A DNA stretch of 64,000 nt from Crambe crambe (lineage: Eukaryota; Porifera; Demospongiae; Poecilosclerida; Crambeidae). The stretch lies in assembly GCA_963924555.1 (NCBI GenBank), contig OZ004585.1, positions 3,361,488-3,425,487 of the forward strand, written 5' to 3'. Positions 9,995-28,174 of this stretch are shown in pieces (the stretch's first letter is position 1; each line of letters starts with the position of its first letter). A model generated the notes under the pieces. The model had not been told where the DNA came from and did no database searches. It saw nothing but the letters and a program-made list of their open reading frames with translations. A program made the position numbers and the translations under genes.

Positions 9995-10249
9995 CCTAGT
10001 ACTATAGGAGTGTATTTAGTTACTTGAGCAAATGATAATAATTGAATAATTCATACCTCAGACCTATATAAACCCAGTTAGCTATAGCTATAATCATAGC
10101 CAGCTAGCTAAACTGTTATAGTCTGGAGCTAAATATTGTGTTATTTATATTGGTAGTCGTAGCTAAATATTGGTAGCTAGCTAGTCTGATAGTGTCAATT
10201 GCAATCTGGTTCACTATAAACTTTTCTATATGGGACCCCTGCGTAGATA

Positions 10250-10440
10250 TGTCTATGGAGGCCAAAGTAGCCAGCTCTGGCCAAGTAAGGTAAAGCGGGG
10301 CTATTTCGAACGGTGGGGCTATTCCGTAGGGTCAAATATTTTCAAAACTCCTCGAGCTTATGAGCTCTATTTTGAAAGGTATATTCTACTATTATGACCT
10401 GCAGAGTGTCCATGTAGTTGATAGTGATTTTAGAATGAGC
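10250..10440. repeat. Unassigned intergenic stretch
   Basis: Contains a short direct repeat (gcggggctatttcgaacggt / ggtggggctattccg) and no coding signal. Its affiliation is unknown. Confidence 0.3.
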
Positions 10441-10527
10441 ATATCCAGTTCAGCTGGATCTCTACAGAAGACATAGCAAAAGAGTGGGTATGCTGCTGGA
10501 GACCGGACAGGACAACACCTAGAGGAC

Positions 10528-12075
10528 TGTCACGCGAAATCCGGTCCCCCCCCAAAAGCGGTCCCCCCGGACCAAAAGTAGCTGCCAAAACCAGTCCCCC
10601 GGACCAAAATCGGCTGCCAAATACAGTCCCCCCAAGCAAATTATGGTCCCCCTCCGGACCAAAATTGGCAGCAAAAAATGGTCCCCCTCCATACTGAAGT
10701 AAGTCCCCCAACTCATAATCTCAACACAGCTAAGAGAAAAAAAAAATTATACAGTATAGGGCATGGCCTCACTATAATTATTATTAAAATTATTATAGCT
10801 ACATCTATTATACATCTACCACAGTTCCACTTCTTCCGATTGTCTATATATGTTCTGGGAATCTTGACACGACTTGTGTGGTACCATTCTTTACATTGGT
10901 AACACTCAACCATCTTGTGTCCATCATCCGGCAGTCTGCATGTGCAGTACACCTTGACCACCTCTGTTCTTGCTGGTACAAGCTTCTTCACACGCCTTTT
11001 AATTTTCCCAGGGAATGGCATTAACAGTTTGTTTGACAACCCATCTATCAAATGTTGCCGCATCATTGCCTGGTCAAATCTGATAGTCGAGGGGTCCTGG
11101 CCATTGTACACGCTGATGCAAGTGCAAAAAGTCCACAATCGTACCCACCTACAGGGTTCAAAATAACAATCTCAAATGTCTGGTCACCATGGCCTTGCAT
11201 GCACTGGCTAATTTGAGTGGTCATTTCTAATTTTGCATGGTTGTGCCGATACCTCTGGCAAGCGTCACATTTGTCAACCTATGCCATCACAAAAATGATA
11301 TAGCTAATATTATGACCATTGCTTGCATGCTGGTAGCACAGAATAAATTATATAGACAGAATTATAACTCACAAATTCATTAACATCTTTTATGATTCCA
11401 GGCCAAATGAATCTCTCATTAATACGTGCCACTGTTTTCTTCAACCTTAGGTGTCCAGAAGTTGGCTCTGAGTGGCAAGACTCCAAAATTCTCAATCTTT
11501 CTTCCCTCTCTGAGATATAATGCACCTGTAGCAAAATGCAACTTGAGATAGTAATTATATTTTAACATTTTTATTGCAGGTAGCTATGATAGCAGATTTA
11601 CAGTATAACTCACTTGCTCTCCACCTTTCTTCTTGAAAAATACTTCACCCTTTCTCACAATAATTCTCTCTGCCTTTCTATAAATGACCCTCTTTTCATT
11701 CTTAGTAGCTCCTACAAAGAACGTTAGCACGGGTGGTGATATAGGTATCTACAATCTCAAGCTGATTTACTACTGGCTGTACTGTATGGCTAGCAATAGA
11801 CTCTAGTTAGTAGTTGCATTACCTGGAGGGTAAATAGCATTCTGAAGGTATTGCACCGCATCCCTCACCAATACAGCTTCTCTATCTTCTTCAGTCTCAG
11901 AGCATGAATCCATGACACAGCCAGACACCAAAAATGACAGAGAACTAGCCGAGCACGCTGTATTATTACGCACGGTTGCGCAAGGGGACCAATTTTTGCA
12001 AGGGGGGACGGTTTTTGGCAGCTACTTTTGGTCCGGGGGGACCACTTTTGGTGGGGGACCGGATTTTGCGTGACA
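10528..12075 (-). mobile_element. Deleted Ginger-type DNA transposon
   Basis: Long inverted repeats begin TGTCACGCAAAATCCGGTCC and end in ACA, with GGAC on both sides (10524-10527, 12076-12079). TGT...ACA ends with a 4-bp duplication are the Ginger pattern. Minus-strand coding remains are, in order, an integrase-type zinc-binding segment with HSEPTSGHLRLKKT and CDACQ (about 11230-11534), a Ulp1-like VGGYDCGLFALA (about 11130-11175), and a PHD finger YCTCRLPDDGHKMVECYQC...CGRC (about 10810-10940). The DDE integrase core is absent, so the copy cannot be autonomous. The TIR interior carries a GGTCCCC...GGACCAAAA motif repeated about five times at the left end. Confidence 0.8.
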
Positions 12076-12084
12076 GGACATGCT

Positions 12085-12710
12085 GCAGTCAAATGGGAAC
12101 ATATTGTGGTGTAACCCCCCCAAAGGTGATGGTGACTTTGAGACACCTTGTGGCTAAAGTGCAAATCATAAAACTCTGCAACTACTGCTGAGGGCTTGCT
12201 GCAGAGTGCCTGTAGTGATGAAGATCAAGCTCGTCTTCTCAGTTTCGACTAAGGACTCTGGTGCTTGGTTGCATGCCTTACCAATCACTTGCATTGGGCC
12301 TGAAATTGCTGTTGGGATTGTACCTGGCCACTGCAATCTGTGGTCCACACCATTATGGATCCACTGTGGATGCTTTGGGAAGACATGCCCTCAGCTGTCT
12401 CAGCCCACATTCTTCCAGACTATAGTCAATGGGCAGAGGCAAGATGGAATATCACTGGCACGATGGGCCGATCTGCTTGTCTAACATACTGTGATATATT
12501 ATTTGCTCCTTCAGGGCTTAGGTGAAGCATTGGGAAAGGAGCAGAAGTACACTAGCCTTTCCCCAAATTATACCTTTACACCAGTGGCCATCAAGACATT
12601 GGTGCTTTTGGCCCCCACTCTTTGATAGATTATTTTGGGGAGCCATTTGAGAGCACAGTGATATAGACCTCAATCATGGGTGCTATGGGCCTGTAGAAAC
12701 ATAACTCTCA
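12085..12710 (+). mobile_element. Non-LTR retrotransposon (LINE) 3' fragment
   Basis: The plus-strand frames read SGAWLHALPITCIG, then NGQRQDGISLARWA, then a segment like KYxxL...FTPVAIKTLVLLAPT. These match, in order, the conserved region after the reverse transcriptase of several LINE clades (WLxALP, DGxTLxPW, FxPVAxETLG). Only this distal part is present and frames change between motifs. The Ginger-type element has inserted at its left side. Confidence 0.6.
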
Positions 12711-12712
12711 TT

Positions 12713-15700
12713 GGTTAGTTAGCTAGCTTCTTTATAATCAAAGTTCGTAATTTATTGTTATCATGATTGTCATATATACTCTTGGCTGCTCTCCTGTCAA
12801 TACTGAGCAATTTACTCAAAAGGAGAACCATTGCCTGCATAATTATGTACAGTAAGATTTGATGAATAATTATATGTAAGTTCATAAAATTGAGTTTACC
12901 TCTGGCCATAAAATATATTCTGCTATCTGGAGACCTGTGATCATTTTTGTGTTCTGTACATCACACTGGACTGCTTTCAGATATGTCTCTACTTCAAATC
13001 CCTCCAATGTATGCATAATCACATTTTAACATGCTAATTAGTACGGTCAAAAATGGCAATTCCGTGACCACTATTTGGCTAACATGTTTTGATGATTGAT
13101 TTCATTTCTTGGGGTCATTCATTGAAAATTTAGCTCCCAGGTCCCTCCCAAAAGTCCTGGCATTTTTTGCTATGGCGCGAAATTTAAAATTGCAATCTAA
13201 AATCGGGGTATGCTGTGTACAACAGTGCACTAAGACACTTCTTAGGGTAAATAAACCTCAAGGATTTCAATTCTGACATTAGTTTCATATGTTTATTAGA
13301 CCCAATAATCAATAATAATTGCAATTGGAAAAGCGAAAATAACAGTAATAATGGATGTTTGTGGTGAAAGACTACACAATACATATTTTGTTGATGTAAA
13401 AGCAGTACTCTAGCATTCTGCATCACTTATAGAGTCTATGGAGTCTGTATCACTAGATTCTGAAGAGTCATCACACCGCCGTGGTACACAATTGTCTTCC
13501 TCATCATCGTTATCGTCGTCGCTTTCAACTTCCTCACTGTGGTTCTATCAGAGATTTCTACCAGTAGTGTCCGGAGTTACCCCAAACCGCGATTTTATAC
13601 TAGCTATGAATTTTGCCCGATAACTTCACAAGATAAAGTACTAAAATAATAACGCTTGGGGCCTTGATAGATGAAGAGTTCAGCTTCTTTTTTGAACTTT
13701 ACTGCTCGATCATAGCTGCTTCCATTCCAAAGTTATCCTTCCCAATTGAAAGTTCGTCCGGAGTTACCCCCGCCTACCTTACGCTTTGTAGCAATGATAG
13801 TGGTTAGCTTGTCCATGATGTCATTCACAACTGACTTGCTTGGTGGCTGATTGTATGACATATGAAAGTAACCCTTGCTCTTCCCCTACTCTTGACTCAA
13901 ACCTGCGTGAAAACCATTGTAGGATGGGATAGTCTGCTCAGCTGCATCAGGACAATCACTGTCAGTATTCACACGAGCAATGATACTGCGCTTTCGCTGA
14001 GGCTCTGTATTTGCTGAAAACGTAGCTGGCTCAGGACGAATTGGTGGTTCGCCACGCTTAGTGGTCTTGTACGGTGTCACAGCCTGCATTTCAGACACCT
14101 TCTCACTCAATGCTGGAGACATTGTCTTCGCATCTTTGGTGCGAGAGTGCAGCTCCTGAACATTTGCCTCGTACTCTAGGCACTTTAGAAGCATCCAGTT
14201 GCAGCAATGTGAAGTCCCCCCCTCCTGTAAGAGTTTCACTAATTATTGATAATACTGATACTTGGCTGTCCATCAGCAATCACATCAGGACACACGGAAC
14301 AAAGTCATGCAGGGTCCATGCGTCCCGTAATACAAGGACATTTGAGTAGCTGATCCCTATGCCGAGCTTATGAAATGAATCAACAAGCAAGTCATCCCAT
14401 GAAGAGTGATGCTGGCATTGATGGAAGTTGTTGTAGGTTGCTTCATGATGTACTGCATAAGAAGAGAAGTGAATGTTAGAGTACACGGAGAAAGATCTAC
14501 CCCCTTCTTCCCCCGCAAAGCAGAAAGCAGCTCAAGTATAAGAGGAGAAAGTTCTTCTTCCTCTTCCAACTCTTCTACTCTTGGTGGCCACAGAACAAGT
14601 TTAATTTGCTTGATATCTTCTCTGAGCCGCTCAGCAACATTGTGTATTAGTTGCTCTGTGCTGATCCCAATAGAGGATAGTGCCGCTTCAACATAGGAAC
14701 CAACCCCAGACACATCATAGACAAGTTCACCATGGTTTTTTTCTGGACGGGAGTGGAAGCCTATTCTCCCATTACACTCTCTACAAAGAATCTCTTTGAT
14801 GAATGATGACCGGACACCAGCTGTTGGAAACCCAAACTGAGAAATGGTCGAGCAATAATCTTGGAGTAGGCTCTGCAGTGACCTTAGCTCAAAGATTACC
14901 TTTCAGGTGTGGTCAAAAAACATGGTCTGAACCTCACCATAAGTGATGTTCTGCATTTGTGAAAGCTTATCATCTTCACTCATTTTCTGGAATTTCCGAA
15001 CATACTTCAGCCAGCATTTGTGATAATACCTGATTTCAAGAGCATCAATCAGACAGTTGATTCTGTCACGCATTTTCTGATCTTCAAGGGCCACTGTGTG
15101 ACTCTTGAAAGCTGCCCATGCACGGTCATATGAAATCAGCAAAAGCTTTGACTCCGGAAGCTGGTTTACAACACCAAACAATTTTTTTTTTGTCATCAAT
15201 CAGCCCTAAACTTGATCACAGCCTCTTGGCAGCTGGAGCTTCGTCTTGGGAACTAACCTCAGCTATGGATGAAGACTGGCATTCAGCCACCTCACGTTTA
15301 TTTTGTCTCTTTTGAGCCCTACATGTTTATGGCCGAAGTGGGCTTAACTATAGAACAAAAATAACCATTTAGTCCACATACCTTTTCTCGATGCAGCTGC
15401 AAAAAAGAATGGTGATTCTTTGCCACTAAATTTGATCGATCAGAGGACTAGGAGTATAGCAGTTAGTACAGCAAATTCCTGTATTATATAATTATGGTGA
15501 CTTACTCAAGATGATTTAAACTGACTGAACTAGTGGCACAAAAGTCTCTGTACTTATACCAAATCCTGCATGATCATGCACATTGATTATTGGGTCTAAT
15601 AAAGGTCATATCATGAAACTAATGTCAGAATTGAAATCCTTGAGGTTTATTTACCTCTTAGTGCACTATTGTACACAGCATACCCCAATTTTAAATTTCA

Positions 15701-18700
15701 CGCCATAGCAAAAAATGCCAGGACTTTTGGGAGGGACCTGGGAGCTAAATTGACCCCAAGAAGTGAAATCAACCATCAAAACATGTTAGCCAAAGAGTGG
15801 TCACGGAATTGCCATTTTTGACCGTACTAAATTCAACTCTATGGGCCATTGTGTTATTATTTTCCTCTTCAGTTCCTTAGTTGGATTAACACTGTAAGGG
15901 TTCTGAATTTTTCCATTGACAATTTTCCTCCATAAGTCCTGCCATGGTGACTGTTATGATCAAGGTGTACAATTTATTATGAACTTACTTCATTTTCTTT
16001 CAGTACTCTCCTCACAAACTCTCTTTTGAATATACAGTCACTATAATCAAGGATATCAACAGTGGTAGCTAATGAAGTACCCAAGAAAAGGGCCTCTGGC
16101 TTATAGAACCAAGCTTTGTTGCAATTATTATGCCATAAGCCCCCTTCATGTAAGTAGCTACCTACTTTATTTACTGATCTGAAGTGCTCACGGAAGTATG
16201 TCTTAGCTACATCGAACCATACTTCCTCGACTGTCCTATGATCAAATATAAAGATATCATCTTCATCTTCAATGTTTTTTCTTTGATGGAATGAAGGAAA
16301 TATGAATTCTGAAGGAATATTAATCTGCTTCAATGGTATCAAGGGACTACCAGACTTTTCATCACTTAAATCTAAATCTAATAGACAATATAATTAGTAT
16401 GCAGGATTCAAGAATCAAAGTTTACCATCTTTGAACTTTATTGGCAACAGTTCTCCATGAATCAACTCCTCATGGATCACTCTTCTTAAATGTGGAATAT
16501 CAGTCTAAAAGATAAACGGCTAAACAATATCAACATTCTTGGCTAATGATACCAACCTGAGAAAATGAAGGAACCTCACCAATCGCCATAAAGTGAGCAG
16601 CCTGTAATATCAGTTATGTATTATAACTATTACTATTAGAGTTACCATGCATACGAAGATCCCACAATCTGATGTATTCTTTTGAAGTGGCATACTCTGC
16701 TTAATAATAATTAACATCATTTTTAGCTAATGGCATGATAGGTATTATTATTACATGTGAATTCCATCTCCTCTACTCTGTTTGATCCACGTCACATCCA
16801 GACTCTTTACTCAATTCACATATAGAGTACCTGCCAATTATTAATAATTTTGAACCCTTATTGGCTGGTTAGCTATTCTCTATTTTAGGATTAGATAGCT
16901 CCAAATATGAATCCATAAAAATAATAAGTTTTTCTTGTGGTTTCACAACCTATATACATATTGATCACAATAATTATTATTACAGATCAGCTAGATAGTA
17001 CATTTTAATTACCAGCAATATCCAATGAGAATTATTAAGATGCCATGGAATTAAAACTATATCTTTGTCAAAAAAAATTTTCTTGACAGTGATAAAAAAA
17101 ATTAATGATCATAATGAATTATTATGGAAAATATTTCTTTGCACCTCTATATCCATCCTTCATCAAAGAAATACCAAAGAATGTACTTGCTGCTGCGATT
17201 TGTAGCTATTCACAGCTAATAATTATTATACAACTCATAACAGCAAATGCGTTGGACTTACAGCATCTTTATGAACATTTTCATGGCTCAATAGTGCAAA
17301 ATACTTATTAATGATCTAAATGAAGTAACAAGTAATTATCATAAATTTAGGTTACAGTACAACTCACAATATCATCAAGCCATTGACCATCATTCAATCG
17401 CCACAAGCTAGGTTCCAGCAGTGGATCACTCAAAGTTTCAGTATGCAACTGCTAGTATTGTAATTTCAAGAACTAAAGTTATAGCCACTTGTCCTTACAT
17501 TCTTATCTGGTATGATTATGCTAAACTCCTACATGTATAGAAGAAGAATAAAAATTGGGAAATGTCCACTGGATTTTGGACTGCTAGCTAACCTTTAACT
17601 CTGATGAAAAATCATTGCCATCAATTTCCAAGATATGTACCTTTATTAAGAACACCAAAAGGAATGCAAAAATTGTAAGATTTTCTAATAATGCACTCAC
17701 TGAAGTTTCCAAGGTCGAGTATAGTAGGATTACCACATTTCTCTGCAGAATAAATTAAGCGTTTAGTAATCTGCTTAACTAACAGAACTAATAAGAGTAG
17801 TAAGTGTGATATACAGTTTATATGTACCATAATTATAGGAGTTAATTATGGGGAGTTTTATTTTCGCATACGTAGTTGGCAACATTCCTAGATCGATGTC
17901 AGCTGCCTGCTCACTTCCTCCTTCTTCAAGAACTTTCAAAGAGACGCTGGAAACGGAGCTAGCTAGCTATTATGTAGTCTTGCGTGCAGCTCATAGTTCC
18001 ACAATATACACTCAAGCCCAACCCCCAGCCCCTAGCCCTATAGAGCTAGCTATAGATATTGGTGGACATTATTATTGGTGGTTCCAAGACGGACCAAATT
18101 TAATACATCGCCAAATTTAACTTGTAGATTATAATTAACACATGTACATGAAAATATAATGGATATATTAGTGCTGGTCACATGACCTGTGACCAATCAG
18201 ATTCTATGAAAAGTGTGTTTTAAATTTAATGCACACTTGAGGTGAGCATTCTTACTGAACCCAATGTGTCTCAGAGCTTGCTAGGTAGTAGAGCTAGGGT
18301 GGAATTTGATTGGATCAAAGTCGTGTGATCAACACTAAATTGTTTAGATCTAGCTCCATGTGTTTTAATGCATGGTGCACTCGAATGATGCTTCGGCTCA
18401 TGCATTACATTCACCTTGAACATTATAGCATCATTCTAGTGCAGGTGCATTAAAACACTTGAGCGAACTAAATATGTATTACGTAGTATAATAGCATTCA
18501 TTGCTGAGTAGATAGCTACCTTGATACATGTAGAGTCAATAGTATTGCCTTCCACTTCTGAAATATGTGAATCATTAATGTGGACCAAAGAAGAACAGGT
18601 TTGTTGAGTCAGATAAGTATCATCTGTGGATATTGAAGACAAATTATGTAGTTATTCGATGTTAGTAATATTCAATCTTACAGTGACCACTTGTTACTGT

Positions 18701-21700
18701 AGTACCATGATGTACCTGCAGTATGATCACTATAATCTCTTTTCAATACTCATTAAGAAACTTACAATAAAGCCTTGTAATTGATACTCGATAGTCCTAC
18801 CATCAAGCTTTAGTTTTATGTTCCTGTACATACATGTAGTGTAATACGTAAGCATATGATTTATAATTAGCTATTAGTGTCAAACTATGATTAATCAAAC
18901 ACCTCTGAATAACGACTTGTCTATTAGATCGCTTGGATGGTCCTGATCGTACAGAGTCTTAAGCTTTGAAGATACATGAATTCCTCCCAAGTTCTGGCAG
19001 ATCGAACATTGTCTATACACCATGGATTGTACAAACAAGTTTGCATGTACTAAATTTCAAGTATAGCTGTTACCTATCACTTGGTCCTTTTGTGACTCTA
19101 TCAATGTTATGATCAAACATAATCAGATCTTCTACAGTGATTTATTTCCGGCTATTACCGAGTGAACAATAAAGGATTGGATTCTTTTCCAATACTCCAA
19201 TGAACTAAAGGATTAGCTTAAAATCATTTAGACTATAATTACTATTATACCTGACGAGTTCCTCCATTGTGGCAAAAGGTACAATAGGATCGAGTCAAAT
19301 AGGATGTAGTAAACAGTTTGTCACACTTGTATTCCTGTCATCATCATGCATAAAAGAATTGCATTTATAGCTATATACGTAGCTATTAGCTATGTATATT
19401 CTAAGTGAGTGAATTCCTATACAATAACTTACATCAATGCTCTCAACCAAATGGCCTGTTAATGATTGCAAACCCTCTGCAACATCCTGATGATGACAAT
19501 TAGCAAGACTCTGCTTGAGCATGGACTATAAATGATTATAATTACATACATCAATATGGTATTAATATCTTCCACACCTTCAAAAGTAGGATGTTGACAG
19601 ACTGATGACACTTCAATGCTTTGAAAATTCTGCAATACTCAGCCTGAACTTGATTCATATTTTTCATTCCTTATAATTAATAACATCACATTATTATCAC
19701 AAATGGCTCATTGACAAATACACTTACCATAAAGGAATTTGTTGTATTCAGCAGTTGAACAACTGATATCAACCAGCAGCTGTTCTCTTTATTGGGAATT
19801 CCACAAAACGTCTGAAGTATTAGCTATACACTATAAAGTCTACGACTGGCTGAGATATAACTATGGACCTTGTAATGGGGCTGCTTGTCAGATGGTTGAA
19901 GTGGTTGCTGATAGGGTGATGGAGAAGGCTGCATGTTCAAAGGTGAACTAAATTGGAAATACATGTTTACCTTGGAAAGGGGGTGCTTGTCAGGTGATTG
20001 AAGTGGTTGCTGATAGGGCAATGGGGGATCCAGAGGCTGCATGTTCAAAGGTATAAAAGCAGAACTAGCAAAATTAGAAGCGCATGTTTTCACCTTGGAA
20101 TGGGGCACCTTGTCAGATGGAGGAGGTTGCTGATAAGATAATGGAGGAGGCTGCATGCATGTTCAAAGGTAGCTATGAAGTTAGAACTAGCAAAATTAGA
20201 AGTGCATGTTTTCACCTTGGAATGAGGGTGCTTGTCAGGTGGTTGAAGTGGTTGCTGATAGGGCGATGGGGGATCCAGAGGCTGCATATTAAAAGGTATG
20301 AAGGTAGAACTAGCAAAATTGAAGTGGATGTTTTCACCTTGGAATGGGGCACCTTGTCAGATGGTTGAGGATAGGATGATGGAGGAGGCTGCATGCATGT
20401 TCAAAGGTATGAAGGTAGAACAAGCAAAATTGGAAGTGCATGTTTTCACATTGGAATGGGACACCTTGTCAGATGGAGGAGGTTGCTGATAGGGTGATGG
20501 AGGAGGCTGCATGGTGCAATTAAGAATTTGCTAAAGTTTTTTACCTTGGGATGAGGCTGCCTTTGAGAAGTTGCAGTTATCTAACTAGCTCTAATGGGTG
20601 CATTACCATAGAGTCATCTCTCTTCTTGTACACTTTTATCCTGCTGATATTCACTTTCTTCTTAAGAATCACACCTTTCTGGTTCATAACCTTGTATATA
20701 CCTTTCCCTAAACTTTTATGAATTGTATATGGCCCTAGAAATGCTTTGTCCAACTTTCCTCCCTTTCTTTCTTTTTGAGCAGTATTTTCAATCAGGATTT
20801 CGGTTCCAGGAGCCAATTCCTTGGGGAGATGCTTTCTGTCATAGGTCTCCTTTTGCTTTTGCTGGGATATTTTTATATTGCTCTCAACTTTTTGAAATAA
20901 TTCTTTCTTTTTCTGTAATAAAATCGCCATTGTCTTGTCCAAATCTCCTTCTTCAATATTTCCTTTAGGGATTATTTCGTTATCAATTGGAAGACGCATC
21001 TCTTTTTGAAATAACATGAAGTAAGGGGAGTGTTTGGTCGACGCTTGACTTGATGCCCGATACCCCATTAAAATGGTATTGATCTTCTCATCCCAGTCAT
21101 TATGATCTTGATTTCATACTTTAGCCAGGCATCTGGTAAGAGTCTGATTGAAATGCTCTGTGAGCCCATTGGTCTATAAACAATATAGTTATAGGTAAGA
21201 TAGCGAACTCAGATAATACATGTATATAAAACACCTGTGGATGGTAGGCAGTGGTGATTCTATGCTCAGTATTTGTCATAGAGTAGAGCTGTGCTGAGAG
21301 ATCATTCATGAATTCCTTTCCTTGGTCCGTGATTAAGACTTCTGGGCAACCATATCGACACATCACCTGTTCACATTTTAAACACAGTAATACAGAGGCA
21401 CATTCACTATTCAAGTTCAAGTCTGCAGCAAAATAGGCATGAAACTAATGGTTTAGCTAAGTATGTTCAAGCCTGCACCATAGCTTTGTCAGTGCATAAG
21501 CACGTTCAAGCCTGCACCAAAAAATAGCTTTATCAGTGCATAAGCACGTTCAAGCCTGCACCAAAAAATAGCTTTGTCAGTGCATAAGCATGTTCAAGCC
21601 TGCACCAAAAAATAGCTTTGTCAGTGCATAAGCACGTTCAAGCCTGCACCAAAAAAATAGCTTTGTCAGTGCATAGCTAAAAACACAAATGCTCTACACA

Positions 21701-22444
21701 GTGTAAATATTCATACAAGTTTTATGGTGAAAAACTCACACTGTACACAAATTTAGCAACATTTCCAGCAGTTTTATCTGTAAGAGGGGTAGCTTCAGCC
21801 CACTTGGAAAAGTAATCAGTAACTGTGATAATATATTTGTAGCCACGAGGAGTCTGAGGTAGTGGTCCGATGAGGTCCATTCCTATTTGGCTCCATAATT
21901 GAGATGTGACAGGAATAGGATGAAGTGTACCACTTTCTTTCCTTAATTTTTTATTACTTCTTTGGCACTGATTGCATGTCTTAACCTATATGAATGTGAC
22001 AGTTGTAGAATATTCTAACACTCTAGTGTTAACACTTACATATGCTGAAACTTCTTTGTACATCAAAGGGCAGTAATATTTTTTAGAAATGAGATCATAA
22101 GTCCTTTTTAATCCCAGATGGTTGGCATCATGAATTGCTGATATGATTCTATTTTGTTGATCAAAATTTTCAATCACCAGCCTTGGTGGAACTGTTCTCT
22201 TTCCTATAAATGAAATCAGACAAAGTAGCTAGCTACTAATTTAGACTCTTTTAATAGTAATAGTCTTACCCTCAACATAGTAGAGCTGAGCCTCCTCTAT
22301 AATAAAGTATTTCGCTCTTTTCCGTAAAGAGAGTTTATCTTGTTTTTCCAAACCCTCTGGATAGAATCCAGAGTTGATGTAATCAAAGATTTGTCTGTAA
22401 CTAAATTTTCCTCCAGTTTTTTCCATCACGACTGTTGCATGCAT
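12713..22444 (-). CDS. Many-exon transposon-like gene: integrase + proline-rich mini-exon array + Ulp1/SENP-like protease
   Basis: Short minus-strand exons bounded by GT-AG run from 22444 to a terminal exon ending RTLIIKKLAN at about 12715. The 5' part (22444-20607) is a Ginger/Gypsy-class integrase. The middle (20556-19870) is a mini-exon array. Exons from about 19660 to 17500 are unrecognised (one with QCSICQNLGG). 17451-16640 encode a C48 protease: WRLNDGQWLDD, INKYF, IPWHLNNSHW (His), FMDSY (Asp), LQKNTSDCGIFVC (Gln, Cys). 16500-15977 encode a further conserved-looking block (IHEELIHGELLPIKF; VEEVWFDVAKTYF). An exon at about 12910-13020 (GFEVETYLKAVQ) lies beyond a nested element. Integrase plus PHD/Ulp1 is the known Ginger DNA-transposon association. 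Whether this is one transcript, and whether it is an element or a captured host gene, is inferred. Most exons look open, with a few doubtful junctions. Confidence 0.6.
13039..15829 (-). mobile_element. 2.8-kb long-TIR element with an unrecognised protein gene
   Basis: Inverted repeats of about 280 bp begin TAGTACGGTCAAAAATGGC, flanked by AAT on both sides (13036-13038, 15830-15832). The minus-strand coding part (about 15200 to 13427) is split among three or more frames. It reads LLLISYDRAWAAFKSH, a long helical region (YHKCWLKYVRKFQKMSEDDK), AERLREDIKQIKLVLWPPRV, HKLGIGISYSNVLVLRDAW and an acidic end (DDDNDDEEDN). I know of similar uncharacterised proteins in sponges but no domain. No DDE signature was seen. 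It sits inside the minus-strand integrase/Ulp1 gene, between two of its exons. Confidence 0.75.
13567..13770. repeat. Direct repeat gtccggagttacccc flanking ~185 bp
   Basis: Identical 15-mers at about 13569 and 13752 bracket a non-coding stretch within the 2.8-kb element. Possibly a small insertion or a recombination scar. Confidence 0.4.
19860..20560 (-). repeat. Tandem array of proline-rich mini-exons (~120-bp unit, 6-7 copies)
   Basis: Units start near 19861, 19968, 20087, 20210, 20331 and 20443, with a partial unit at 20540. On the minus strand each holds an acceptor-like catgcag, a ~57-bp exon encoding variants of PPSPYQQPPPSDKVPHSK, a gtgaaaac donor and a ~60-bp intron. A 12-bp micro-exon (Pro-His-Pro-Lys) at 20545-20556 has the same tail. 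It lies between the integrase and protease exons, so copy number would set linker length. Confidence 0.75.
20607..22444 (-). CDS. Integrase part of the multi-exon gene (Ginger-type)
   Basis: Five exons: 22270-22444, 22040-22203, 21740-21985, 21235-21366 and about 20607-21173. In order: an N-terminal region (KRAKYFIIEEAQLYYVEG), an H2C2 zinc-binding domain (HDANHLGLKRTYDLISKKYY ... CNQCQ), then the DDE core with GMDLIGPL, ITDQGKEF and NGLTEHFNQTL, and a C-terminal GPY/F module (FLGPYTIHKSLGKGIYKV). It would bind ends and join strands during integration. Real introns between the domains argue against an ordinary LTR retrotransposon and for a Ginger-type DNA transposon or a gene derived from one. 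It is broken in about one place. Confidence 0.75.
21463..21676. repeat. 44-bp tandem repeat, about five copies
   Basis: The unit gcacgttcaagcctgcacc...tagctttgtcagtgcata recurs every 44 bp with few changes. It lies in an intron of the minus-strand integrase gene, between the exons at 21235-21366 and 21740-21985. Confidence 0.9.
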
Positions 22445-22745
22445 ATGCGCAATCTTAAGTCGACGTACGGATTTTCAATGTTTGCGAGCTTTTTGCAACA
22501 TCCATTTTACTTACGGCGCATGCGCATTAAAGGTTGCGATGTATTAATCAGTTGCTATGCTACTTAGGCTCACTCCATGACCCATCCGCGGCAGAATTAT
22601 GGCATCCCTGCGAGCTATACTACACAAAAGCTTACAGTGGTCTGGAACTGAATGCTGAGTCTTCAACAATTAGCCCTTGGCAACCTCAAAACCGCGCATG
22701 CTCAGACAGTACGTTAATATTTCAACATTGCAAAAAGCCAGTAGC
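22436..22745 (+). mobile_element. Family-B dispersed repeat (copy 2)
   Basis: Longer copy of the repeat at 8370. The outer parts (gagctttttgcaacat at 22480 and caacattgcaaaaagcc at 22722) are inverted, consistent with a short MITE of about 260 bp. It abuts the 5' end of the integrase gene. Confidence 0.6.
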
Positions 22746-23350
22746 AGTTTGAAATCGCAATTATTGGCTGTTGGGTATATTGATATCTGACTCAACTCCT
22801 TTGTATAAATATTAAAATTGCCACTACTGAATGCCCCAGTGGTGCCCGTGAGATCAAGGAGTCGGGACAGAGAGAAATCAGACATTGAGGGTGAGTTCAA
22901 ACTCGAACTCTGCATAGGAGGCTGAGGGTGGGGGCTAGAGGGGCTAAAGCCCCCCCCCCCCAAAAAAAAAATTCTGAAAGGGGGGGCTCAGCCCCCTCAA
23001 TTTTTTGCCTACATTACGTACATCTTTTTCATTGAACTTTTCATTGAACTGTTAGACTTGTTAGAATGTGCAATGCTCTATTAAAACAATCACATGATTA
23101 GCAATGAACTTACATATAGCTAGCTGATTATAGTTTGCAGCTGCTACAATCAAGTTAGTGGGTTACCACTGCATTGAGTGATATTGAGCTTGATGTTATT
23201 AGCTTAGCAGCAAAGCTTCTGCTTAGACTTCCTAGCTAGCTACTTTAAATGGCTTGGCCCATATCTGGTGCACTTTCTACATTACACCTCATCCTCAGCC
23301 CCCCCAAAACTCAAGTGCCTCAGCCGTCTATGCTCTGGATCATTGCATAT
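22746..23350. other. Gene-free tract with C13A9 homopolymers and GC-rich repeat ends
   Basis: Contains gggctaaagcc followed by C and A runs at 22950-22970, then gggggggctcagccccctc. Similar words (cctcagccccccc; ggggggctcaagcccattg) recur at 23295 and 24775, hinting at a degenerate repeat cut by the satellite. No gene. Confidence 0.4.
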
Positions 23351-23791
23351 TATATAGCTACAATACGTACTCAACTTTTGACATAGCTAGGGATGAGATA
23401 TCAAAATAGCATATAGATTTGGGATGGTGTCCCCTATCTACTAGCTTCCGGGGGTACCATTTATCTATCAAAATACACTTGGGATGGGGTAAAGAAAAAA
23501 GATATAAATCTACATATAGATATAGGTACCATTCTGCATCTGTCATGGAGACCGTCTCCATATCTACAGATGCAGTATGATACCTATATCTATGTAGATT
23601 TTATATCTTTTTTCATCAAAGTGATATGGAGAATGGTACCTATATCTATGTAGATTCATGGATGAGATATTCTTTGATCAACATACAATCCATATATTAT
23701 ACAGATTGAAAATGGTAGCTATGTAGATTCATCGATGAGGTGATCAACATGATGAGGTCCCCATATCTACACATGGAGAATGGTACCTATA

Positions 23792-24085
23792 CAGCGGTGG
23801 AGTTAGGGGTCAGGTTTTAAGGTTTCAACCTGACCACTTTTTCAGCCCTGCCACACCCCTGATTTTTTTAAACAGCAGCTTAGTAATGCATGCATGAAGC
23901 TATTGATTGGCCGTAGCCAGTATCAATAGTCAATTTGATCAGAAAGGATTTTGTATCTACTCTAATATCGAACAACTTTTCTTTAAAGCAGCATCTGGAG
24001 TGAATTTTCTATTGTGTGTGCTACATAGCTACTCACAAGTCCGAAGGTCAACCTGACCACTCAAAAATTCCTAACTCCACCCTTG
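23792..24085. mobile_element. Small MITE in the satellite, hAT-like ends
   Basis: CAGCGGTGGAGTTAGG at the left and the complementary CCTAACTCCACCCTTG at the right. The inner arms share aacctgaccac. Flanks gtacctat and ctacgtat agree at 6 of 8 positions, compatible with an aged 8-bp hAT duplication. Confidence 0.6.
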
Positions 24086-26686
24086 CTACGTATATATATC
24101 TATGTAGATTTGTGGATGAGATATCTTTGATCAACATACAATGGGATCTCCATAATTATGGAGAATGGTGTAGATTTGTGGATGAGATATCTTTTGATCA
24201 ACATACAATGGGATCTCCATAATTATGGAGAATGGTGTAGATTTGTGGATGAGATACGTTGATCAACATAAATTTAGGAGTGGGATCCCCATGGTGTAGA
24301 TTCGTGGATGAGATATTTCGATCATTAATGGGGTCCCAGAGAATGGTACCTATAGATATCCTTTGATCAATATACATCTGGGGATACCTAGCTAAATCTA
24401 TGAAGATTCGTGGATGGGATGAGATATCCTTTGATCAAAGTGCATTCGGGGATGGGATCCCCATATCTACAGATGGAGAATGGTACCTATATCTATGTAG
24501 ATTTGTGAATGAAATATCTTTTGATCAACATACAATGGGGTCTCCATATCTACAAAATTAATGGAGAATGGTATGTTGATCAACATATGATGGGGTCCCC
24601 ATATCTATTAATGAAGAATGGCCAGGATTTTAGAAAAGGGATGGCTCTGAAACAATTATTACTGTGTTACTCAGCTACGTATAAGATATTTTCAATGTGT
24701 ATGAAATAGCTATACCTAAGTGGTCATCAATTCAGGAAACTAATACAAGTGATGAAATCTCCATCAAGGGGGGGGGGGGAGGGGGGGGCTCAAGCCCATT
24801 GAGCCGCCTGCTGGCTACAGGCCTGGAGTATGATACCTAGTTGAAGATTCGTGGATGAGATATCCTTTGATCAAAGTACATTTGGGGATGGGTCCCTATA
24901 TCTACAGTGTAGATTCGTGAATGATCAACAAATTTTGGGGATGGGGTCCCCATATATACATCTATAATGGAGAATGGTACCTATATCTATGTATGAGATG
25001 GGGTCCCCATATCTACAGATTGAGAATAGTACGTACCTCTATCTATGTATCTACAATGGAGAATGAGATATCCTTTGATCAACATAGTATGATGGGGTCC
25101 CCATATCTACAAATAGAGAATAGTACCTCTATCTATGTATCTACAATGGAGTGTATGTAATATATATTTGGGGGATCCCCATATCTACAATGGAGAGTGG
25201 TACCTATATCTGTGTATGTAATATCCTTTGATCAAGCAATATACATTAATTTTGAGATGGGGCCTACAATGGAGAATGGTAACTATATATCTAGCTATGT
25301 AATATCTTTTGATCAACATACATACGATGGAGTCCCCATATCTACAAATGGAGAACGGTGTAGATTCATGGATAAGATATGTTGATCAACATACATACAA
25401 TGGGGTCCCCATATCTATGATGTAGTAGCTTTGGTACATACTGTGGATGAGATAATATCCTTTGATCAACACATACGTATGATGGAGTCCCCATATCTAC
25501 GATGGAGTATGATACCTAGTTGAAGATTCGTGGATGAGATATCCTTTGAGCAAAGTACATTTGGGGATGGGGTCCCCATATCTACAGTGTAGATTCATGA
25601 ATGATCAACAAATTTTGGGGATGGGGTCCCAATACATCTACAATGGAGTATATATATATGAGGTATCCTTTGATCAACATAGTATGATGGGGTCCCCATA
25701 TCTACAAATGGTATGTATCTAATGGTCTATGTATGAGATATCCTTTGATCAATATACATTTGGGGGATCCCCATATCTATAATGGAGAATGGTACCTATA
25801 TCTGTGTATGTAATATAGGCCTTTGATCAATACACATTAATTTTGGGGATGGGGTCCCGGAGAATGGTAACTATATATCTAGCTATGTATAGCTATGATG
25901 TATCCTTTGATGAACATACATATGATGGGGTCCCCATATCTGAATGGTGTAGATTCGTAATGAGATAATTAGGGATGGGGTCCCCAATAATAATAATAAT
26001 AAGGATAATAAATATAAATCAACACCCCGACTTACTACATCTACAATGGAGAATGGAGATATCTGATGGGGTCCCCATATCTACAGATTGAGAATACTAC
26101 CTCTATCTATGTATCTACAATGGAAAATGCATGGTATGTATGAGATATCCTTTGATCAATGTAGCTACATTTGGGGGATCCCCATATCTACAATGGAGAA
26201 TGGTACCTATATCTCTGTATGTAATATCCTTTGATCAATATACATTAATTTGGGGGATGGGGTCCCCATATCTACAATGGAGAATGGTAACTATATATCT
26301 AGCTAGCTATATGTATAGCTAGGGGATATCCTTTGATCAACATACATAGCTACATATGATGGGATCCCCATATCTACAAATGGAAAATGGTAGCTACCTA
26401 TAGCTATGTAGATTCGTGGATAAGATATCTTTTCGATGGGGTCCCCATATCTACAGATGGAGAATGATGTAGATTTATGGATGAGATATTTCGATCAACA
26501 TACGTATTATAATTTTGGGAGAATGGTACCTAGCTACATCTAGTGACTATGTAGATTCGTGGATGAGATTTTTTCTTAATCAACGTACATTTGGGGATGG
26601 GGTCCTCATATCTACAAATGGTACCTATATCTATGTATAATATCCTTTACATTAAGTTTTGGGATGGGGTCCCCATATCTACGATA

Positions 26687-27194
26687 CCTTAAGATGGGTA
26701 TTATTGGCGACTTGTTAATTTAGTGAATTTAGCGAGTAGGCCTTTATTCGCTAATATAAGCACGCGCTAATAATAAAATTTCGTATAATTAGAAGTAATA
26801 CTGAACAATACTGAATAACAGTGCTAGCCCTAGCTAGTTAGATCGCTGTTGTCTTCATCAGAGTCTGTTTCAGATACTCTGATTTCATGGACTCAAGAAT
26901 GGTAGCAGTAGGATGGAAAAGGCAGGAATGACATGTGTAATAGATTGAAGTATCACTATTCCCAGTGAAGATCCTTTTTGTTCAATCTACAAAAACTAAA
27001 CTCTCCAATGATAGTTACTGACACAATAATGCATGTATTATTTGTGCCTGATATTTTTGAAGCAACTTCATACGAAACTACATTTAAAAATAGCTATTAC
27101 ACAAAGCTCAAAATAGCTAAAATTAATACCTGCCAAATACGGTCTCCCCTTAAAACGCTAAAATTAGTAGCCGCCAATAATACCCACCTTAAGG
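26687..27194. mobile_element. 508-bp MITE in the satellite, TA duplication
   Basis: The ends CCTTAAGATGGGTATTATTG and its inverted copy are flanked by TA (26685-26686, 27195-27196). Similarity of the arms extends about 45 bp (ttaattttagcg). Non-coding. Confidence 0.8.
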
Positions 27195-27609
27195 TATCTA
27201 CAATGGAGTATGGTACCTAGCTATAATTATCTATGAAGATTCGTGGCATTTAGGGATGGGGTCCCAGATGAGGTAATTTAAATATTTGGAGATGAGAATC
27301 CATATCAGCATAGATTTGGGGATGGGTTTAGATTCACAGATGAGATATTCGGCAACCACTTTCTTCGCTATATACATGAGACTATCTGCATTAAGAGCTA
27401 CAATCTGCATCAGGATGGGATCCCATCCAAAAACTATGATATGTATCTCATCCAAAATTTAGCCCCTTTTGTAAATATGGGGACCCACTCCATTATTGAA
27501 TGTACAATAATAACCCTTTTTTTTTTGTGCTGTTATAGGTGTCAAATTTCTAGTAGAGCATCGTTGAATCTACAAATATTATTGGATGTCATTAAATCTA
27601 TGCTTTTTA

Positions 27610-27730
27610 TTTTGAAAGTATGCCTATTATTATTATTATTATTAGTAGTAGTAGTAGTAGTAGTAGTAGTAGCTAGTAGTAGTAGTAGTAGTAGTATTTA
27701 TTATTACTATTAGTATTATTATAAAATAAA
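27610..27730. repeat. (TTA/TAG)n microsatellite
   Basis: attattattatt then tagtagtagtag, then mixed tta/ata triplets. The ORF across it is low complexity. Confidence 0.9.
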
Positions 27731-27957
27731 ATATAATTATGAAAATAATAGTAGTATGCAAGCTAGGATAATATATTAAACTATTGGAGAGATGGACTAT
27801 GACTGAAACTGTGGTCCATATGACAGCCTCAAACTCTTGTATTATTCAACCTTAAAAGTTTACATGATAAAATAAGTACTAGCTATTATAGCTAGGCAGC
27901 TTGAACTGCTCTCCCTCACTTTTGTCCTAAATTTTGCTGTATAAAGCGCGCGAGGAT

Positions 27958-27988
27958 TGGGGGGGGGGGGGGGGGGGGGGCGGGGGGT
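27958..27988. repeat. Long G tract upstream of the HSD17B12-like gene
   Basis: About 22 Gs, one C, then six Gs. It can form G-quadruplexes and lies about 190 bp before the ATG. Confidence 0.85.
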
Positions 27989-28080
27989 CCCTATATCTAT
28001 GATGGGGTCCCCATATCTATGATAGTTTTAGGGACGGGGGAGGGGGGATCCCTAGAATTAATTACGGGGTCCCCAAAATT

Positions 28081-28174
28081 TTATGATGCCGGCGGCCGCG
28101 TTTTTGTTCCAAGCTTTTCGCGCGCAAACTACGGATAGATTATATGCGCGCGCGCGCCGCTCGTATATGGAACC
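28081..28174 (+). promoter_or_regulatory. CpG-rich proximal promoter / 5' UTR of the HSD17B12-like gene
   Basis: This 94-bp stretch contains GCCGGCGGCCGCG, TTTTCGCGCGC and a long alternating GC run ending just before the ATG. It is the most CpG-dense DNA in an otherwise AT-rich window. No TATA box at a clear distance is visible. Promoter function is inferred from composition and position. Confidence 0.5.

Follow-up and report, generated by a model that had tools for sequence, protein, structure and literature searches.

A probable Ginger1-type DNA transposon with a USP and SENP-type protease tail in the sponge Crambe crambe

Gene organization at the locus

The window considered here, a 64,000-nucleotide stretch of the demosponge Crambe crambe (assembly GCA_963924555.1, contig OZ004585.1, positions 3,361,488 to 3,425,487), carries on its minus strand a series of exons that can be joined at GT-AG boundaries from an ATG at 22444 to a stop at 12715. 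Their joint product would combine an integrase with two proteases, one of the USP and one of the Ulp1/SENP (C48) kind, and the locus is very probably a defunct copy of a cut-and-paste DNA transposon of the Ginger1 type with a USP and SENP-type tail, referred to below as family A (Table 1). The GT-AG exons, the H2C2, DDE and GPY/F motifs of the integrase, the repeated proline-rich mini-exons and a C48 protease retaining its His, Asp, Gln and Cys had all been recognized in an original prediction made from the letters alone, and each was recovered: Pfam finds Integrase_H2C2 (2e-17), rve (7.4e-10) and Peptidase_C48 (5.8e-19) in the joined window exons (with X at the breaks), and the mini-exons are in phase. 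The prediction had further proposed that the mini-exon array couples the integrase to the Ulp1 protease; the order is right, but the USP domain (18520-19811), matched by UCH PF00443 at E=5.7e-11, had been overlooked between the array and C48. Nor does the gene fill the whole range assigned to it, since 13038-15830 is an inserted element with terminal inverted repeats (TIRs) of its own. A scan of the genome with PF02902 gave 8 matches, none of them in the window element, which we attribute to the shortness of its C48 exons; with Rfam, nothing in the window reached the gathering scores.

Table 1. Features of the family-A copy in the window and locations of the other copies
Feature	Position	Strand	Remarks
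Family-A element copy, extent of homology to other copies	10228..28090	-	blastn vs C1/C14/C6/C3; 5' TIR-like sequence at 28090
Diverged 5' TIR GGCATCATAAAATTTTGGGGACCCC	28060..28090	-	starts inside a CCGG
Integrase exons I1-I5	22444-22270, 22203-22040, 21985-21740, 21366-21235, 21173-20607	-	in-frame TGA in I5
Six proline-rich mini-exons	20506-20465, 20388-20353, 20281-20216, 20150-20109, 20036-19971, 19928-19869	-	all phase 0, multiples of 3
USP (UCH, peptidase C19) exons U1-U10	18520..19811	-	frame broken in U1, U7
Exons P1-P12: lead-in P1-P3, then Ulp1/SENP (C48) domain	16426..17742	-	donors lost in P6, P8; TAG in P9
C-terminal exons D1-D3	15831..16377	-	-14 nt in D1; D3 donor lost
Last exons D4 (13001-12900), D5 (12834-12715)	12715..13001	-	natural stop in D5
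Inserted TIR transposon between D3 and D4	13038..15830		absent from C1, C14, C6, C3; TA both sides
Small inserted TIR element, 3' part	10528..12076		insertion site uninterrupted in C1, C14
Copy C1 (integrase + USP + C48)	C1:5059254-5066310		
Copy C14 (integrase + USP + C48)	C14:2663438-2669244	-	
Copy C6 (integrase + USP + C48)	C6:2556878-2562799		
Copy C3 (integrase + USP + C48)	C3:3854848-3859231		

The domains follow one another as an integrase with YPYY, H2C2, DDE and GPY/F motifs, a proline-rich linker, USP, Ulp1/C48 and a C-terminal region. The catalytic residues of the integrase are D169, D208 and E244, with 35 residues separating the second D from the E (D35E); by eye, the YPYY motif of Ginger1 is seen in exon I1 of the copy C1 (FYP...KYF...LYY), and GPY/F in I5 of the same copy (FLGPYTIHK) and in a related family B, described below (RLGPYKIS). 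The amplified mini-exon units that encode the linker are flanked by AG and GT, start and end in phase 0 and have lengths that are multiples of 3, so that any of them could be skipped without a change of frame. Their number is 6 in the window, 5 in C1 and 6 each in C14 and C6, the array being deleted in C3, and matching units differ by 3 or 9 bases between copies; the apparent lack of splice sites in unit A3 and the shift of A3/A4 in the comparison of the window with C1 come from differing units, unlike ones having been paired by the aligner. Both proteases carry recognizable motifs, NSCW/SGHY and SHW/MDS/PLQ/SDCG, which we take to be the catalytic motifs of USP and SENP proteases, respectively. 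In C1, the C48 profile is covered from 1 to 205 of 217 positions, with His, Asp, Gln and Cys present in an alignment to SENP1, and its nearest proteins in the PDB are SENP1/5/2 (E 1e-23 to 1e-21), which are SUMO proteases. The nearest PDB entry to the USP part is USP30 (3.5e-4); it is a full-length domain that is only weakly like any solved USP.

Further copies and the open frame of C1

When the genome from which the window comes (143 Mb in 119 contigs) was searched at the protein level, four further loci showed an integrase followed by USP and then C48, with integrase matches 81-93% identical in protein to that of the window; a recurrence of the exon order elsewhere in the genome, which the original prediction had proposed to look for, was thus encountered. 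This recurrence, together with exons that diverge less than introns (see below), argues that the arrangement of integrase and tail did not arise by chance. In C1, joining 37 exons gives an uninterrupted reading frame of 1232 codons followed by its stop; 35 of the introns are GT-AG and 1 is GC-AG, the GC donor being GT at the same position in family B. Pfam finds Peptidase_C48 PF02902 (2.3e-23), H2C2 PF17921 (3.3e-18), rve PF00665 (1.1e-9) and UCH (1.6e-19, profile 1-254 of 254) in the C1 protein, and no match in its C-terminal region up to E 0.5. Among the exons that were compared, the splice sites persist from copy to copy, save that deletions have removed several from C3. We infer a single gene of about 37 exons that would encode a transposase of about 1230 residues. 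One mRNA would probably cover the integrase and both proteases; this idea, already part of the original prediction, is supported by the continuity of frame and phase over the 37 exons of C1, from which the common transcript is deduced.

Ends, target site and empty sites

Homology among the copies begins TGTCATAAAGTTTTGGGGACCCC and finishes GGGGTCCCCAAAAC(A/T)TTATGACA, with CCGG adjoining each end. Both ends are known in C1 (12422 bp) and C14 (12241 bp), where the termini read TGTCA...TGACA between CCGG on both sides, and these two of the five copies, the ones with both ends found, show the CCGG target duplication. Inside the CCGG, the two ends match each other in inverted orientation over about 75 columns in C1 and about 86 in C14, with mismatches and gaps, which falls within the length of Ginger1 TIRs (about 40-270 bp), and the 5' TGTNR of that class is seen as TGTCA in C1, C14 and C6, having diverged to CATCA in the window. 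For C6 the 5' end alone was found, and for C3 the 3' end alone, which resembles the inverted 5' TIR; in the window copy no 3' TIR was found, and its homology stops at 10228. The statement of the original prediction that no TIRs surround the element therefore does not stand, as C1 and C14 have TIRs separated by about 12.3 kb, and the 5' one of the window, at about 28090, lies outside the range that had been considered. Minisatellites built of GGGGTCCCC-type pieces resembling the element's own TIR occupy 23350-26000 of the window and the 5' 3.4 kb of C1, as subterminal repeats inside the element.

When the flanks of C1 were joined over one CCGG, all 92 bases spanning the junction were found again at C21:1186050-1186141 (100% identity), as expected of an empty site, and at C9:8262916-8263007 the match was 99%. 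For C14, the joined flanks hit numerous repeat copies, in alignments that run over the junction but include 8-22 bases to the left of it; the case for an empty site is weaker here, given that the left side is so short and the matches are repeat copies. A 90-base query from the 5' TIR found at least 40 matches in the genome at 88-100% identity, 4 of these 40 being C1, C14, C6 and C3, a count that is a lower bound because 40 of 104 candidates were scored. The original prediction had named many TIR copies lacking exon conservation as an outcome that would speak against it; several TIR copies were indeed found, but their exons are conserved. Could the copies have multiplied by segmental duplication rather than by transposition? 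Over the parts that both retain, C1 and C3 hardly differ (2 differences in 3020 exon positions and 5 in 2530 intron positions), as a duplication would leave them, yet homology ends at TIRs with CCGG while the flanks differ, and an empty site exists; segmental duplication is contradicted by the differing flanks, and its probability is exceedingly small.

Decay and insertions in the window copy

The window copy is dead. Relative to C1, its frame meets one stop in I5 and another in P9, U1 has changed in length by -10 nt, U7 by -49 and D1 by -14, and the splice donors of P6, P8 and D3 have been lost. The element at 13038-15830 measures 2.8 kb, has imperfect TIRs of about 220-250 bp (GTACGGTCAAAAATGG...) flanked by TA on both sides, and contains two open reading frames (ORFs; 98 and 181 residues) that matched no Pfam family above the cut-off. 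The small element at 10528, for which the original prediction had already claimed TIRs, does have one (TGTCACGC...GCGTGACA), together with a likely 4-bp GGAC duplication seen by eye. It contains H2C2 (1.2e-13) and PHD (5.4e-7) matches by Pfam and, by eye, a C48-like motif. This content points to a deleted remnant of a Ulp1-PHD Ginger, but the element is too short to class; an assignment to Ginger2-like elements was set aside, as the C48 and PHD pieces fit a Ulp1-PHD Ginger better.

Two other short stretches were noticed within the element. An inverted-repeat piece (GTGTTTTAATGCAC...) at 18340-18462, within the intron that separates U10 from P1, is present in C1 too and may be a small insert of older date that the element has carried with it. 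In the 3' part, an ORF opposite to the gene (...VDALGRHAL...) lies at 12158-12484 on the plus strand and at index 13412-14200 of C1; it is perhaps a fragment of another mobile element, and its C1 version gave no Pfam match.

Selection on the coding exons

Between the window and C1, exons differ at 133 of 3587 positions (3.7%) and introns at 217 of 2966 (7.3%), gaps being left out of both counts. With gapped codons and three stop codons (one of them natural) set aside, the ratio of nonsynonymous to synonymous divergence (dN/dS) is 0.33 for the integrase, 0.32 for USP, 0.37 for C48 (P1-P12), 0.44 for the C-terminal region and 0.38 for all exons. One-sided Fisher tests for an excess of synonymous changes, in which the array was not taken alone, gave 0.0013 for the integrase, 0.0093 for USP, 0.018 for C48 and 4e-7 for all. 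On these ratios and tests, both proteases appear to have been under purifying constraint like the integrase.

Such constraint, together with an intron richness like that of host genes, is what would also be seen if a Ginger element had been domesticated into a host gene, and a gene derived from Ginger was one of the two options of the original prediction. Against this, the domain order recurs in five copies, those with both ends known have the same termini and CCGG, an empty site exists, there are 40 or more TIR matches, and the window copy itself is broken; selection acting before the death of that copy is just what an active transposon needs. Domestication is contradicted for the window copy by its decay and by the copies, termini and empty site, and must be considered highly improbable. 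The transposon identity of family A is, by contrast, well supported, and the other option of the prediction, an intron-rich relative of Ginger, agrees with the Ginger1 termini, the CCGG duplication, the GPY/F integrase and the Ulp1 tail.

A second family and the integrase tree

The loci L082 (C8), L083 (C18) and L068 (C8) represent a family B, whose integrase is divergent and precedes USP and C48; integrase and USP occur together at 11 loci of this family. L082 has a proline-rich stretch between integrase and USP, and its joined USP exons match UCH at 4.5e-21 (profile 1-249 of 254). Comparing the best ungapped segment of each exon, 26 of the 27 tail exons lie in the same order as in family A in both L082 and L083, P3 being weak in both. 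Acceptors of the tail fall at the identical codon and phase in 16 of 26 cases in L082 and 15 of 26 in L083, and donors are exactly in place in 21 of 26 and 20 of 26, respectively. Across the genome, 50 USP matches were grouped by hand into 19 clusters, 16 of which have an A- or B-type integrase (5 A, 11 B) at most 1.2 kb upstream on the same strand, the integrase list being hand-picked with lower matches left out; a C48 match lies downstream of 15, and 14 have both.

The integrase also matches those of Ty3 and PFV, and many further integrase matches lie in long open frames of the genome, one of them Gypsy-type by Pfam. Might the locus then be a degenerate Gypsy integrase with a protease gene of other origin as its neighbour? 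A tree built from a query-anchored alignment of 27 integrase rows, from which L068 was excluded for its length and which did not include the window copy, separates 19 Gypsy-type rows from A, B and their relatives with support 100; these rows were labelled by us, a reverse transcriptase being found by Pfam in L020 and by eye in two more. No reverse transcriptase was matched by Pfam in the 1232-residue C1 protein, nor in two 3' ORFs. A Gypsy remnant is thus contradicted by the tree, by the TIR ends and CCGG duplication and by a protease order that recurs at many loci, and its probability is close to nil. L020 (1-3957) is itself a Gypsy-type element, with SCAN and zinc knuckles and, in one frame, an integrase ahead of the reverse transcriptase (Pfam). 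This integrase-first order is known for Gmr1-like elements.

Within the tree, family A is placed not with B but with L015-L017 and the PHD families (L013, L014), at a modest support of 85. L015, L016 and L017 form a third Ginger-like integrase family, about 66% identical to family A, two of the three matches lying 11 kb apart on C1 in opposite orientation; no USP or C48 match was found within 1.5 kb of them. Over 26 exons of the tail, A and L082 have 369 of 618 residues in common, and in the integrase 80 of 186 by the same ungapped measure. A tail closer than the integrase fits an exchange of tails, but a tail held under stronger constraint would give the same picture. As the integrase of A groups with the PHD family, whereas the USP-C48 tail and many intron positions are common to A and B, one may tentatively speculate that USP and SENP form an exchangeable cassette for stripping ubiquitin and SUMO, which Ginger1 lineages would have swapped for Ulp1-PHD tails as a counter-defence against protein-level silencing.

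Strength of the assignment

Several observations weigh against the picture of a Ginger1-type transposon that encodes one long, constrained transposase. The frame is fully open in just one of the five family-A copies, C14, C6 and C3 having deletions or shifts and the window copy being broken. The array has a dN/dS of 0.65 and the C-terminal region a Fisher p of 0.054, so that selection is weaker or unproven there. In family B, the integrase of L082 contains a stop, and no CCGG-TGT ends were found in L082 (C8:3278500-3288400) or L083 (C18:4280000-4289500), an inverted search of the L082 ends giving weak matches. Three of the 19 USP clusters (C9:5391340, C3:3020482 and C19:2702549) had no A- or B-type integrase that we could find nearby; the first of them is followed by a C48 match. 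Finally, when left unspliced, the frame of I5 reaches its own stop after nine codons in the window copy and in C1, making an integrase-only product possible.

This last point can be taken further, to a transposon with two transcription units, in which an integrase-only transposase would end after I5 and USP-C48 would be a separate passenger gene; the greater likeness of the A and B tails than of their integrases is also in keeping with such an arrangement. What speaks for one unit instead is that frame and phase are unbroken in C1 from I5 via every array unit into U1, and that the array units are multiples of 3 in all four copies having them. In the excerpts of the Ginger1 description used here, moreover, published tails belong to the transposase, except for one member without a tail (PMC2836005). 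We consider two units unlikely.

Possible roles of the two proteases

By analogy with related transposases, the integrase module would be expected, with considerable confidence, to cut at the TIRs and to insert at CCGG. The USP and SENP-like modules might strip ubiquitin and SUMO off the transposase, or off silencing or chromatin factors at the donor or target DNA, whereby the element could escape degradation or SUMO-dependent silencing; judged from sequence, we regard this as conceivable, with odds slightly short of even. Why do transposases carry ubiquitin- or SUMO-type proteases at all? To this question family A brings one of each kind in a single frame. That both appear constrained, and occur in two divergent lineages of one genome, makes it testable, and exchange of tails between Ginger lineages becomes traceable.

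Comparison with known systems

Ginger2/TDD elements share with family A an integrase-type transposase and TIRs; according to the excerpted description, they lack GPY/F and YPYY and use AT-rich targets (PMC2836005), whereas family A has GPY and a CCGG target. Closer to hand, the integrases of L013 and L014 are 48-59% identical to that of family A, and the tail of L013 is of a protease type too, with a C48-like motif (by eye) followed by PHD (1.2e-9; Pfam scored PHD only); no USP match was found within 1.5 kb of L013. SENP1/2/5 and USP proteases, which are host enzymes, have domains alike by sequence, and in family A both stand on one transposase frame. Imagin, a host gene from Ginger1, is multi-exon like family A but, in the excerpts of its description, has a defunct DDE and is without inverted repeats (PMC12863088), whereas family A keeps catalytic motifs and repeats.

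In the literature searched, which did not cover Repbase, where such an entry could exist, no paper was found that places a USP domain in any Ginger element or integrase transposon, and no report on the pairing of a ubiquitin-type with a SUMO-type protease in a Ginger element; 23 Ginger1 entries were taken from Repbase in 2022 by another study (PMC10045372, as excerpted). Every defining feature of Ginger1 that was looked for is present (YPYY and GPY/F by eye), and it is on these features that the class assignment rests, the tree containing local sequences only.

The excerpts of the original description (Bao, Kapitonov and Jurka 2010, PMC2836005) give Ginger1 TIRs of 40-270 bp, TGTNR ends, YPYY, H2C2, DDE and GPY/F motifs and target duplications of CCGG (75%) or CCGT/ACGG (24%), in elements of 2.6-7 kb with 0-4 introns and an OTU or Ulp1 tail, from Hydra, Aplysia, Branchiostoma and aphid hosts. 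Common to these and to family A are the integrase motifs, TIRs, 5' TGTNR, the CCGG duplication and a C-terminal Ulp1. The published elements, so far as described there, have OTU or Ulp1 and never both, whereas family A has USP before Ulp1, a proline linker of mini-exons and a 37-exon gene far exceeding their intron numbers. The Ginger1 class itself is thus known, and what family A adds to the excerpted description is a USP domain, a tail with two proteases, a count of 36 introns and a length of about 12.3 kb (12.2-12.4 kb).

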